This document shows positions 4,923 through 13,722 of a stretch of 23,241 nt of DNA, piece after piece (within the stretch, counting starts at the first letter, position 1; each line of letters begins with the position of its first letter). The notes under the pieces were generated by a model that was not told the origin of the DNA, did no database searches, and was given only the letters and a program-made list of their open reading frames with translations. Both the position numbers and the translations under genes were made by a program. Origin of the DNA: a virus; the IMG/VR virus record IMGVR_UViG_3300027668_000107, positions 1 to 23,241 of that record, one strand, 5' to 3'.

Positions 4923-4944
4923 CAAATATAATATTTTTTATTTA
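4923..4944 (-). promoter_or_regulatory. Leftward promoter candidate for the packaging operon
   Basis: Read on the minus strand, 4930-4923 is TATATTTG, a full match to the Bacteroidota -7 box TAnnTTTG. About 20 nt further upstream is TTCTG (4944-4940), only a weak version of the expected TTG element. The long A/T stretch between them is typical spacer. Transcription would start near 4916, about 55 nt before the ATG at 4861. It is the only good box seen facing left in the divergent gap. A coincidence in AT-rich DNA is possible. Confidence 0.5.
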
Positions 4945-4988
4945 TATATCAGAATTGTTTTTATTTATGAGAGTGTGAGGCCCTCTCC

Positions 4989-5105
4989 TGTACACCCCCT
5001 ACCCATACTAATCTTTTAGGCTACGCCACCTATTCTATCAAAAGCAAGTTGGTTTTCACCTTGTACAATCTATATGGAGCATCCACTACCTAGTGTGGAA
5101 GTATT
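4989..5105 (+). promoter_or_regulatory. Structured leader of the first rightward gene
   Basis: This is the right half of the divergent gap. TGTACA at 4989-4994 can pair with TGTACA at 5062-5067, enclosing about 67 nt that hold a small GGC/GCC hairpin near 5019. Four bases after the closing strand comes ATATGGAGC. GGAG (5076-5079) is followed by 3 nt, then a hairpin with stem CCAC (5083-5086) and GTGG (5095-5098), then 7 nt and the ATG at 5106. A short reading frame from ATG 5074 (MEHPLPSVEVL) stops in an ATGA overlap with the gene. The same arrangement recurs before the genes at 6175 and 6457. No TAnnTTTG box facing right was seen in the gap, so the early promoter is unidentified. Confidence 0.55.
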
Positions 5106-5431: not shown

Positions 5432-5683
5432 ATGACTTACAAAGTAGAAACATACATCAACGGAGTAATATCAACTGTTAAATTACTTAACGAAGAGAAA
5501 GTATTAGAGTCTGTTAAGCTAACTATAGAAGACGGAAACCTTACAATATTCAATACTGGTGTCTTAATAGAAGACAACGAAGCTAGTGCGGAGGCTATAC
5601 TAGAAAGAAACGGAGTTACGTACTCATATATATACTATAAACTACCACTAACCGAACTAATGGTACTACTAGAAAGGTATTAA
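5432..5683 (+). CDS. Hypothetical protein, 83 aa
   Basis: The product is 83 residues, acidic, with alternating hydrophobic residues that suggest a small beta-rich fold (TYKVETYINGVISTVKLL, later VTYSYIYYKLPLTELMVLLERY). There are no cysteines, membrane segments or known motifs. The start context acatacattATG is the common one in this genome. It shares a general character with the 88-residue product at 7064, which also starts with short beta strands and ends in a hydrophobic LMLIF segment. I see no alignable identity strong enough to call them paralogs. Confidence 0.65.
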   Translation: MTYKVETYINGVISTVKLLNEEKVLESVKLTIEDGNLTIFNTGVLIEDNEASAEAILERNGVTYSYIYYKLPLTELMVLLERY

Positions 5684-5860
5684 TACCCAAGTACAAGGGA
5701 GCGATTCACCCTACTCTGCCTATAATTCACTAAAACGTGGCTACTAACGTCACACAACCCATACTATAGTACTGTTAAGAAAACGGTGCGGCTGAGAACT
5801 ATGTTCGAATCTACCCGTCAAAGCAGTACAATCATTTAGTATAACAATACATCATTCATT
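5684..5860 (+). other. Non-coding gap with a long-stem RNA candidate
   Basis: These 177 nt contain no convincing gene. The second half can fold into one elongated hairpin. GTACTG (5769-5774) pairs with CAGTAC (5824-5829), ACGG (5783-5786) with CCGT (5815-5818), and an apical GAAC (5796-5799) with GTTC (5803-5806) around a TAT loop. The first half holds weaker pairings such as GGG with CCC near 5697-5712. The 9-mer CCCATACTA near 5758 also occurs near 5000, before the first leader. The string TTCGAAT resembles a tRNA T-loop, but the flanking bases do not pair. Function is unknown; processing site or leader for the gene at 5861 are options. Confidence 0.4.
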
Positions 5861-6079
5861 ATGGAACTTACTTATATCGAAACCGTAAAATGCATAGAAG
5901 ACAAGATCAACGATCTAAAAGCGTCTCACGAAGAAGCGTGTAAAGAGAAGTGTAACTCAACTGAAGAAAGAAAATATATGGCAATCTATAAGTTATACTT
6001 AGAGAAGGACATCAACCTACACGCAGTAATTGCTGACAACATTAAACTACGAAAACAAATAGAAGAAATAAAAGAATAA
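5861..6079 (+). CDS. Small helical Lys/Glu-rich protein
   Basis: The 72-residue product is almost entirely charged and helical, with heptad-like spacing (ETVKCIEDKINDLKASHEEA, ending NIKLRKQIEEIKE), so it is probably a coiled coil. Three cysteines (at about 11, 27 and 31) are present, but not in a standard zinc motif. No family is recognised. The start is chosen from the catcattcattATG context. A structured non-coding gap precedes it and the three-helix RNA element begins 5 nt after its stop codon. Confidence 0.6.
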   Translation: MELTYIETVKCIEDKINDLKASHEEACKEKCNSTEERKYMAIYKLYLEKDINLHAVIADNIKLRKQIEEIKE

Positions 6080-6084
6080 TACTA

Positions 6085-6174
6085 CCTCTTGAAGACATCG
6101 GTCTTATCGTGTTCGCTACACTAAAGAGGAACTAACTAATATGGAGCAACCACTACCTTAGTGTGGTAAACATT
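6085..6174 (+). promoter_or_regulatory. Three-helix junction plus SD-hairpin leader, copy A
   Basis: An outer stem CCTCTT (6085-6090) with AAGAGG (6124-6129) encloses two hairpins: AAGAC (6092-6096) with GTCTT (6101-6105), and GTGT (6109-6112) with ACAC (6118-6121) around a TCGCT loop. Eleven bases later comes ATGGAG (6141), then 3 nt, a hairpin CCAC (6150-6153) with GTGG (6163-6166), 8 nt and the ATG at 6175. A mini-frame MEQPLP runs from ATG 6141. The element is intercistronic. Copy B at 6369-6456 keeps every helix with different bases, which argues for a conserved RNA structure. Confidence 0.6.
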
Positions 6175-6363
6175 ATGAGAAACAACAATTCAATTCCAGT
6201 AGAAGAGTTTAGCGATATAGCATTAGCTGTATCTATTTACAACCTAGAGGTTGAATACGCTAGACGTAGAACGGAGAAGTATAACCTTACGGAAACAGAA
6301 GAACTAGACGATCGAGTAATGGACGCATTACTAAGAATGAATCTAGAAATAGATAAAGAATAA
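6175..6363 (+). CDS. Hypothetical acidic protein, 62 aa
   Basis: This is a soluble, helical, acidic 62-residue protein with no recognised family. A longer frame could begin at GTG 6163, but that codon lies inside the conserved leader hairpin. By alignment with the leaders of 5106 and 6457 the true start is ATG 6175, 8 nt after the hairpin. Its stop is followed within 6 nt by the second three-helix RNA element. There are no cysteines or membrane segments. Confidence 0.65.
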   Translation: MRNNNSIPVEEFSDIALAVSIYNLEVEYARRRTEKYNLTETEELDDRVMDALLRMNLEIDKE

Positions 6364-6368
6364 CAATA

Positions 6369-6456
6369 CCTCTGGAACAAGTGTTCGTAACATTCATCGC
6401 TGAATGCAGAGGAACTAACTAAATGGAGATTGAACTACCTCAGTGTTCTAATCATT
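6369..6456 (+). promoter_or_regulatory. Three-helix junction plus SD-hairpin leader, copy B
   Basis: An outer stem CCTCTG (6369-6374) with CAGAGG (6407-6412) encloses GAAC (6375-6378) with GTTC (6383-6386), and CATTC (6391-6395) with GAATG (6402-6406) around ATCGCT. The sequence GGAACTAACTAA following the junction is the same as in copy A. ATGGAG (6423) is followed by 3 nt, a hairpin GAAC (6432-6435) with GTTC (6445-6448), 8 nt and ATG 6457. Compared with copy A the last base pair of the outer stem changes T-A to G-C, both inner stems are rewritten but still pair, the second hairpin keeps TCGCT in its loop, and the start-proximal stem changes from CCAC/GTGG to GAAC/GTTC. Confidence 0.6.
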
Positions 6457-6636
6457 ATGGTAAATCCTACCGAAGAAGATTTAAAAAGAATGGCTGAAGA
6501 GATGTTAAAGGAAGCTAAAGAACAAGAGAAGTTTAACTACTCTGGAGCCGAAATGTGGAGGGATACTAAGAAGGCTGCGGTCTATACCTCAACGACATTA
6601 CTTATTATACTGTCTTGTTTTACAAGCGGAGAGTAA
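6457..6636 (+). CDS. Small protein with C-terminal membrane helix
   Basis: The 59-residue product has a charged helical N-terminus (EEDLKRMAEEMLKEAKEQEK) followed by a hydrophobic segment at about 40-55 (AAVYTSTTLLIILSCF), so it is likely tail-anchored like the product at 5106. A longer frame from TTG 6430 was rejected because it would translate through the leader hairpin. ATG 6457 has the same spacing to the hairpin as the ATGs at 5106 and 6175. No family is recognised. Confidence 0.65.
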   Translation: MVNPTEEDLKRMAEEMLKEAKEQEKFNYSGAEMWRDTKKAAVYTSTTLLIILSCFTSGE

Positions 6637-6770
6637 TATAGTGTGGTAGCAACGTAGGGCTGCCATCAACAACTTTAAATTCTGAGTGCTCACTGTAAAC
6701 TAGTCACTACGATTAGTATACAGCTGGGCAGCCAGAAAGTTGTAAAGAAACAACTGTGCTATATCATATG
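6636..6770 (+). ncRNA. Candidate multi-helix structured RNA
   Basis: The gap after 6636 folds by hand into five nested, mutually compatible helices. P1 is ATATAG (6636-6641) with CTATAT (6759-6764). A hairpin is GGTAGC (6645-6650) with GCTGCC (6659-6664). P2 is ACAACTTT (6669-6676) with AAAGTTGT (6736-6743). Inside P2 sits a nine-pair hairpin with one A-A mismatch (6693-6702 with 6714-6723) and, directly abutting it, CTGG (6724-6727) with CCAG (6732-6735). An alternative local hairpin, 6738-6742 with 6751-6755, would disrupt P2, so a two-state switch is conceivable. Three bases after P1 comes ATGGAG (6768), as in the other leaders. No known riboswitch or ribozyme core was recognised. Confidence 0.45.
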
Positions 6771-6800
6771 GAGCAAAGTATCTGATCCAAGCACATCCCT

Positions 6801-6887
6801 ATGCAAGTCTTCAATCATAATTGGAAGACAAATATAGTAAAAGAATCGCAAAGAATTTGCGGATCGTCAAAACCTTATAAACATTAA
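6801..6887 (+). CDS. Possible 28-aa peptide, doubtful
   Basis: A 28-codon frame (MQVFNHNWKTNIVKE then SQRICGSSKPYKH) starts 31 nt after the fourth GGAG and ends 11 nt before the next gene. The DNA also holds two hairpins that could be its real purpose: 6807-6815 with 6820-6829 (nine pairs, one bulged G), and CGCAAA (6847-6852) with TTTGCG (6856-6861). No hairpin clearly bridges GGAG and this ATG, so it differs from the other leaders. It may be non-coding leader of the gene at 6899. Confidence 0.25.
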   Translation: MQVFNHNWKTNIVKESQRICGSSKPYKH

Positions 6888-6898
6888 AGAGTATTACT

Positions 6899-7051
6899 AT
6901 GATTAAAAAACTAGAGTTCGTGATATTATTCACGTTGCTATTAGCTATGAACGTAACAATATTGTTCGTGTTCGCAGCTACATCAGAACTATTCATATTA
7001 GCATTACTACCATTCAGTGTGTATGCTATGCATTTAATCTTAAACAAATAA
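6899..7051 (+). CDS. Two-helix small membrane protein
   Basis: This is a 50-residue, very hydrophobic product starting MIKKLEFVILFTLLLAMNVT. Two membrane segments are likely, at about 7-27 and 31-47, joined by a short ATSE turn, with Lys at both ends. The basic N-terminus predicts it in the cytoplasm. Holin-like size and shape are possible, but nothing nearby supports lysis, so no function is assigned. It follows the structured region 6636-6898. Confidence 0.65.
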   Translation: MIKKLEFVILFTLLLAMNVTILFVFAATSELFILALLPFSVYAMHLILNK

Positions 7052-7581: not shown

Positions 7582-8025
7582 ATGAAAGCAAGTGAAATAA
7601 AAATAGTCTACAAGACTAAAGTAAAAGCTAAGGATAGAATAAAGCTCACATCTTCAAAGTGTGTGCATAGATTCCTTAGAAGCATATTCGACAAAGATAC
7701 AATCGAGCATATCGAGAGCTCGTATCTAGTAATGCTAAACAGGAGAAACGAAATCTTAGGATACACAAAGTTATCCGAAGGTGGAGTATCATCGTGTATA
7801 ATGGACGCTAAAGTAGTGTTTCAATACGCACTAAAAGCAAATGCCTCTGCAATAATACTAGCACATAATCACCCAAGTGGTAATATGGAGGCTAGTCCAG
7901 CAGACGTAGGAATTACTACTAAGATTAAGACTGTAGGTACAGCGTTGGACTTACAATTAATCGATCACTTGATATTATCACCATCAGGAGCCTACTACTC
8001 ATTCGCAGACGAAAGTCTATTATAA
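7582..8025 (+). CDS. radC: RadC-like JAB/MPN metalloprotein
   Basis: This 147-residue protein consists of the RadC-type JAB/MPN domain alone, without the helix-hairpin-helix region of full-length bacterial RadC. The zinc signature is complete: H95 and H97 in AHNHPSG, S105 and D108 spaced as HxHx7Sx2D, and E45 as the candidate general acid in the IEHIESSYLV strand. Family members occur widely in mobile elements and phages; their biochemical role is unsettled and the old link to DNA repair is not firmly supported. The motif suggests a peptidase or deubiquitinase-like hydrolase fold. Start ATG 7582 lies 1 nt after the previous stop. Confidence 0.9.
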   Translation: MKASEIKIVYKTKVKAKDRIKLTSSKCVHRFLRSIFDKDTIEHIESSYLVMLNRRNEILGYTKLSEGGVSSCIMDAKVVFQYALKANASAIILAHNHPSGNMEASPADVGITTKIKTVGTALDLQLIDHLILSPSGAYYSFADESLL

Positions 8026-8037
8026 ACAAAAGAAACT

Positions 8038-8211
8038 ATGAACAGACCAAGAATCAAAATGTTACCGATCAGATCGAGTAACCCAAACAAGAAAACCTTC
8101 ATTAAAACCCTTACTCAGTTAAAGGTTGAAACTATGAAGAGAGAATTAAGAACGTATAAAAGAAATATGTCTGTATGGGATAAGATCCTAGCAGACGTTG
8201 CTAAGCTGTAG
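8038..8211 (+). CDS. Small basic protein, 57 aa
   Basis: The 57-codon frame starts at ATG 8038, 12 nt after the radC stop. The product is strongly basic (MNRPRIKMLPIRSS, KKTFIKTL, KRELRTYKRNM) with a helical C-terminus, so nucleic-acid binding is plausible but unproven. Codon use and start context match its neighbours. Its stop overlaps the first strand of a structured leader. Confidence 0.6.
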   Translation: MNRPRIKMLPIRSSNPNKKTFIKTLTQLKVETMKRELRTYKRNMSVWDKILADVAKL

Positions 8212-8273
8212 AACTTGAGTTCGTTGGGCTATTCGTTATAGCCTACGGCAACTAATCTATTAAAGATAACCTT
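8208..8273 (+). promoter_or_regulatory. Two-hairpin intercistronic leader
   Basis: The 62-nt gap has a GAAC (8211-8214) with GTTC (8219-8222) hairpin around TTGA. A longer arm follows: GTTG (8223-8226) with CAAC (8249-8252), enclosing GGCTAT (8227-8232) with ATAGCC (8238-8243) around a TCGTT loop. GTAG (8208-8211) could alternatively pair with CTAC near 8243. It resembles the two-hairpin design of the elements at 6085 and 6369, including a TCGNT-type second loop, but lacks ATGGAG and the start-proximal hairpin. The next ATG is 8274. Confidence 0.4.
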
Positions 8274-8564: not shown

Positions 8565-8615
8565 ACTTAAACTGTCTTACTGGTTAAAAGACGTTAAACT
8601 TCCCAGAACTAGCTT

Positions 8616-13388: not shown

Positions 13389-13635
13389 AGAGCAAGCTAC
13401 TAGAACGCTGCATAACAAGTCCTAGCTCCACAACTGCTAGAGTGAATGGAGTTAGGCAGACCTACGAGAGGTAACTGCGTGAGTGTTACCAAATTATTTC
13501 CTTAATCGGGATTTAAAAGTCGGTGTTGGGGAGGGCGGGATTCCTTCCCAACCATGGACTAGGTACCACTAGGATAGAGATAAATTCTTGTCTCAAATAT
13601 AGGAGATAATAGAGACAATTGAAATAAATTAGGCG
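13389..13635 (+). ncRNA. Structured non-coding region, four strong hairpins
   Basis: No gene is seen in these 247 nt, but four good stems are in order. A: CCTAGCTCC (13421-13429) with GGAGTTAGG (13448-13456). B: GGTAAC (13470-13475) with GTTACC (13485-13490). C: GTTGGGGAGG (13525-13534) with CCTTCCCAAC (13543-13552), ten pairs. D: TTGTCTC (13588-13594) with GAGACAA (13612-13618). Stem A competes with AGCTA/TAGCT (near 13394) and TAGG/CCTA (13453-13464). Hairpin C is G-rich in an otherwise AT-rich genome. It may be a small RNA, a long leader of the gene at 13636, or an origin-type element. No promoter box or T-run was seen. Confidence 0.45.
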
Positions 13636-13722
13636 ATGTATACAGAAATAGCAGGAGCAATATCAGGAATACTTACAATAGTATTCTTTATTTTCATTAT
13701 TTACCAACTAAAACAAGACTAA
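13636..13722 (+). CDS. Single-helix membrane peptide, 28 aa
   Basis: The 28-residue frame encodes a short polar N-terminus (MYTEIAGAISG) and one hydrophobic helix (ILTIVFFIFIIY), then QLKQD. It follows the structured region directly and ends 1 nt before the next ATG. The last codons and the downstream junction are repeated at the end of the next gene (21-nt identity), so both proteins end in QLKQD. A real gene is likely from packing and the clean membrane pattern. Confidence 0.55.
   Translation: MYTEIAGAISGILTIVFFIFIIYQLKQD

Follow-up and report, generated by a model that had tools for sequence, protein, structure and literature searches.

Three-way-junction RNAs between the small genes of a marine crAss-like phage lineage

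A family of compact three-way RNA junctions was found at gene boundaries in a virus record of 23,241 bases (IMGVR_UViG_3300027668_000107), which is referred to as the window over its whole length. The fold, compensatory change on the transcript strand, the position, the presence of several copies in some genomes and the independence from neighbouring genes were all obtained directly, and it is practically certain that the family is real. With regard to its role, we tentatively favour cis-acting junctions of ~45 nt that would mark cistron boundaries and be recognised by a trans-acting factor, serving message separation or stability.

The left part of the window carries portal and large terminase genes of the crAss-like type on the minus strand, and the right part holds small early-type genes in a plus-strand array. 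Among the matches listed, the terminase was less than 30% identical to those of named crAss-like phages, and no DNA similarity of the window to named phages was found. By terminase identity, viral contigs formed a near group (85-94%) and a far group (~64%). The phages are marine and crAss-like, and all matches to the junction family fall inside one such lineage. As the phage belongs to the crAss-like group, its host is presumably a member of the Bacteroidota. The ORF at 7582-8025 encodes a RadC-like JAB domain (Pfam E 1.7e-33). About 100 nt (4944-5043) separate the divergent gene blocks; this stretch is conserved in nearly all near relatives and is likely a control region of the early operon. 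The features are listed in Table 1.

Table 1. Positions and parts of the junctions, start modules and small ORFs in the window
Feature	Position	Strand	Details
Start module C, no junction upstream	5076..5105	+	GGAG + hairpin UCCAC-UACCUAGU-GUGGA, then ATG 5106
Three-way junction, subtype T1 (copy 1)	6085..6129	+	P1 6085-6090/6124-6129; P2 6092-6096/6101-6105; P3 6109-6112/6118-6121; joining strand AUC 6106-6108; P3 loop UCGCU; homologues in L122 (two), L130, L131
Start module C	6143..6174	+	GGAG + hairpin ACCAC-UACCUUAGU-GUGGU + 7 nt, then ATG 6175
Small ORF	6175..6363	+	62 aa; between copies 1 and 2
Three-way junction, subtype T2 (copy 2)	6369..6412	+	P1 6369-6374/6407-6412; P2 6375-6378/6383-6386; P3 6391-6396/6401-6406; joining strand GUAA 6387-6390; P3 loop UCGC; R2 58.8 bits, E 2.5e-17; homologues in L122, L128, L137
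Start module C	6425..6456	+	GGAG + hairpin GAAC-UACCUCAGU-GUUC + 8 nt, then ATG 6457
Small ORF g2	6457..6636	+	59 aa; kept in relatives; often module C before, sometimes junction after
Small ORF g1	8038..8211	+	57 aa; directly upstream of the D copy
Three-way junction, subtype D (third copy)	8205..8249	+	P1 8205-8210/8244-8249; P2 8211-8214/8219-8222; P3 8227-8232/8238-8243; joining strand GUUG 8223-8226; P3 loop UCGUU; R2 60.8 bits, E 5.8e-18; homologues after the same gene (g1) in L122, L131, L132, L214
Start module B, H-type pseudoknot	8574..8606	+	GUCUU/AAGAC + CUGG/CCAG, then ATG 8616

Two of the junctions, copies 1 and 2, had been proposed in a sequence-only reading as an outer stem with two hairpins, and both fold in this way when taken alone. 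The third copy was overlooked in that reading and turned up in a descriptor scan. Copy 2 and the third copy share one plan with their relatives: P1 of 6-7 bp, P2 of 4 bp with a 4-nt loop, the joining strand GUNA, and P3 of 6 bp with a UCG-type loop, with no unpaired bases beyond the loops and the joining strand. A hand alignment further revealed conserved unpaired bases, namely a G in the P2 loop, G-U-N-(A/G) between P2 and P3, and a C in the P3 loop. The folding energy of copy 2 alone was -15.3 kcal/mol (z -3.65), which was equalled by 1 of 200 shuffles.

The descriptor scan over all loci returned 38 matches, compared with 5 in shuffled sequence, and the top scorers lay nearly all within this phage group, the exception being one match in L166. 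In alignment A2 (11 elements, 17 pairs) 96.2% of the cells were paired. Double-sided changes occurred at 14 of the 17 pairs, against 0 to 4 when the partners were slid, and the covariation score was 0.724, against 0.295 ± 0.034 in shuffles and ≤0.14 after sliding; these covariation counts are inflated and partly circular, some A2 members having been found by the structure descriptor. For this reason model R2 was trained on ten relatives only, with neither window sequence nor 3' flank. In the window it picks out the third copy at 8204 and copy 2 at 6368, which are thereby placed in the family; copy 1, at 6084, scores weakly. The hand alignment comprised 12 unique elements and 16 inner pairs, and all 192 scored cells were paired, 12 of them as G.U or U.G and none as A.C. 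This imbalance indicates that the structure lies in the transcript and not in template-strand DNA. The stems, whose loss in related phages had been named beforehand as grounds for giving up the idea of an RNA element, are kept there.

Copy 1 resembles the other two less closely. Scored without the flank against the model of T2 and D, it stayed at 12.4 bits (E 0.06); an earlier model that included the flank gave 24.8 bits. It has P1 sequence, flank and a UCRYU-like loop in common with T2 and D; the joining strand differs and is not of the GUNA type. Since E is only 0.06 without the shared flank, copy 1 is classed as a separate subtype, similar to the others in its coarse plan and different in its core. 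The earlier description of copies 1 and 2 as one plan thus holds for the coarse outline and not for the cores. Its further claim, that the hairpins of the two copies differ by compensatory changes, did not stand: the stems have 5 against 4 and 4 against 6 pairs, the joining strands differ, and the copies are not base-for-base homologues, so that the differences between them are not compensatory at homologous positions. Compensatory changes do appear when each copy is set against its own homologues. In the T1 alignment (5 sequences) 98.7% of the cells were paired, with two double-sided changes that both came from one sequence and were equalled by 13 of 500 shuffles. Copy 1 alone folded with -13.0 kcal/mol (z -1.98; 6 of 200 shuffles as good).

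Folding in context predicted competing folds for several copies. In its leader, copy 1 was predicted to form P1 with a probability of 0.00, since a long-range pairing to the start region competes with it. This competing fold is not conserved, since the homologues keep P1 at predicted values of 0.53 (L122) and 0.99 (L130 and L131); the long competing fold was not found in L130 or L131.

Searches for known elements gave no relevant family. With Rfam 15 the window had no match at E up to 1, and four relatives had none of relevance at E up to 2. No intrinsic terminator (GC stem plus U run) was present at any copy in the window, where the tail is AACUAA. No description of the junction was found in the accessible literature on promoters of crAss-like polymerases, three-way junctions in phages and RNA motifs of Crassvirales (subscription literature was outside the scope), which together with the Rfam result is in keeping with the earlier view that it was not yet described.

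Apart from one additional contig of the same kind (L208), all matches from the pattern scans and models lay in the near group. The subtype D pattern had no match in bacterial genome contigs, and R2 had none in 21 loci searched, 19 of which were distant relatives (~64% terminase identity). With model R1, the distant relatives gave only one marginal score. The sequence following the junctions had been reported as identical, and AGAGGAACTAACTAA is indeed present after both copies 1 and 2; it is weaker evidence than it looks, because AACTAA recurs as a motif in many leaders of this phage. The 15-nt flank pattern had more than 100 matches in viral contigs, and when the first 100 of these loci were searched with the model, all that matched lay in contigs of this lineage. 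The flank by itself is therefore uninformative.

Other structured stretches were observed as well. A long structured non-coding RNA lies at 6655-6870; it had no Rfam match and is 74-86% conserved in near relatives, and the fold of 6630-6900 had z -6.06 with no shuffle as good. By eye, GGCTGCC/GGCAGCC becomes GCCTGCC/GGCAGGC in L132, L139 and L142, and CAACTTT/AAAGTTG becomes CGACTTT/AAAGTCG in L128 and L145; with 9 sequences, RNAalifold showed double-sided changes at 6 pairs. The intergenic stretch 5679-5867 is 91% identical to L122 and contains the arm pair GTACTG...CAGTAC and TTCGAATC, its single-sequence fold being no better than shuffles. Several G+C-rich inverted repeats were seen by eye at 13389-13640, within a non-coding gap of ~335 nt. 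Upstream of the terminase in L131, L132, L139 and L142 there is a tRNA-like stretch with an intact T-arm, CTCGGTTCGACTCCGAG, which was uncalled by ARAGORN in these four and absent from the Rfam matches of L131, L132 and L142. The structured gaps of the distant relatives hold mostly terminator-like hairpins. Three of these relatives (L166, L198, L199) have a recurring gap element, GGTATACC(T/C)AG...CT(A/G)GGATACC followed by a second hairpin, with a fold z of about -4 to -5.

Every junction examined lies between a stop and a start codon, on the coding strand. It begins 5-7 nt past the upstream stop codon or overlaps the end of the upstream gene, as in the D copy, where the stop codon of g1 shares bases with the 5' strand of P1. 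The next ATG follows 20-28 nt after the junction when there is no intervening module (40 nt in one case); in some cases module C or module B lies between. In L145, L147, L153 and L208 the genes behind the D element differ and are unrelated. L139 and L242 cleanly lack the junction after g1, which makes it dispensable at a particular gene boundary. Whole records of up to 65 kb contain one to three copies matching the model, and the mapped copies lie in the small-gene region adjoining the terminase gene.

According to the preferred reading, a presumed polycistronic early transcript of this lineage would carry the junctions at its cistron boundaries, where one putative trans-acting factor, a phage protein or a host RNase, would recognise all copies. 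A single factor is proposed because loop and joining-strand bases (G, GUNA, C) are conserved besides the helices. Its binding or cleavage at the junction could separate or stabilise the upstream and downstream messages, and the folded spacer would stay clear of the ribosome that terminates and of the one that initiates next. Each small early gene might in this way form an expression unit of its own, with a set stability.

The same spacing could be read more simply. As a pure translational insulator, the folded spacer would part the ribosomes and keep the A-rich leader open, with no specific factor. The tight spacing to stop and start would fit, as would the many other plus-strand gene junctions in the window that have only 0-26 nt A-rich leaders; yet a plain hairpin would suffice for this task, and the conserved loop and GUNA bases would be unexplained, so we consider it rather unlikely. 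In a bold variant that seems improbable, an undescribed compact RNA would be cleaved beside the stop codon, by itself or by a dedicated factor, and the early message would be split into single genes. We think it equally improbable that the junction acts on RNA polymerase as nascent RNA in anti-termination or pausing. HK022 put RNA acts on RNA polymerase in this way as nascent transcript, and several RNA-encoded copies with conserved loops in an early-type operon would be in line with it, but the copies are at gene ends and not near a promoter.

Gene order around the copies differs, being g1-junction-C-g2-junction in L214, where g2 has junctions on both sides, and junction-C-Y-junction-C-g2 in the window. 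The copies could therefore be borders of mobile gene cassettes, used as homologous sites for the exchange of small genes; this accounts for turnover but not for the compensatory changes or the G.U pairing on the transcript strand, no recombinase came to light in passing, and little probability is given to it. Still less is given to a tRNA-like signal cut by RNase P. P1 (7 bp) would lie flush on P3 (6 bp) and be followed by ACUA, as the 7-bp end helix of a tRNA or tRNA-like RNA is stacked flush on the adjacent arm before NCCA. The junction differs, however, in having only three arms and a P3 loop of 4-5 nt that is not a T-loop, and neither ARAGORN nor Rfam gave a tRNA match in the window and relatives. 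The ACUA tail was dropped as an NCCA mimic, as ACTA belongs to the general AACTAA leader motif.

Two kinds of module precede start codons. Module C consists of GGAG, a short hairpin with the loop UACCUNAGU and then the ATG; its stem covaries between copies and its loop is conserved. In the alignment of the module B pseudoknot (10 sequences) 98.9% of the cells were paired, and the single double-sided change was contributed by the copy in the window. The loop motif UACCU of the start hairpin had been proposed to compete with the outer stem for AGAGG, giving a two-state switch or riboswitch, and the complementarity is present in the window copies, L122, L130 and L131. UACCU also occurs without an upstream junction (window 5076 and L132, with UACC kept in L121), it is kept in L214 although the 3' strand of P1 there is UACAGG and not AGAGG, and a UACCU hairpin is missing downstream of three other junctions (8205, L128 and L137). 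The alternative pairing is therefore not co-conserved with the junction, the chance of a switch is very slim, and the UACCU hairpin is, judging from these occurrences, an independent start-codon module. Competition of the junction with module B (UACAGG) was also dropped, since the pair in the window is not complementary.

Least credible is a promoter for a virion RNA polymerase that, like those of phage N4, would work as a hairpin of single-stranded DNA: crAss-like phages carry such a polymerase and the copies are in an early-type region, but the coding-strand G.U pairs would leave C.A mismatches in the template strand, and the copies begin within 7 nt of stop codons.

The junction together with the pseudoknot and the GGAG-hairpin suggests that gene boundaries in these phages are built from interchangeable RNA parts. 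In T4 gene 25/38-type split ribosome binding sites, GGAG and the start codon are parted by a hairpin. Module C is similar in its purine-rich GGAG and in a hairpin that would bring the start codon close; it is unlike these sites in its conserved loop, and Shine-Dalgarno pairing should be rare in the presumed Bacteroidota host. Rare use of this pairing in Bacteroidota is stated in passages of two papers (PMC9976891, PMC8710568). If true, interchangeable parts would make expression in a Bacteroidota host with rare Shine-Dalgarno use testable with short reporters. The junctions themselves add a compact RNA family with a searchable model to the crAss-like phages, in which post-transcriptional control is little described in the literature found.

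The junction resembles hammerhead-type three-way-junction ribozymes in size, in its three helices and in its conserved unpaired bases, but is unlike them in that no Rfam ribozyme was matched in the window at E up to 1. The mRNAs of T7-type phages contain intercistronic processing stems for RNase III or RNase E. Like these, the junction is structured, lies between early cistrons on the coding strand and is independent of the genes that it separates. The T7-type stems are long hairpins, whereas the present element folds into a compact three-way junction, has conserved loops and a conserved joining strand, and is a putative processing site.
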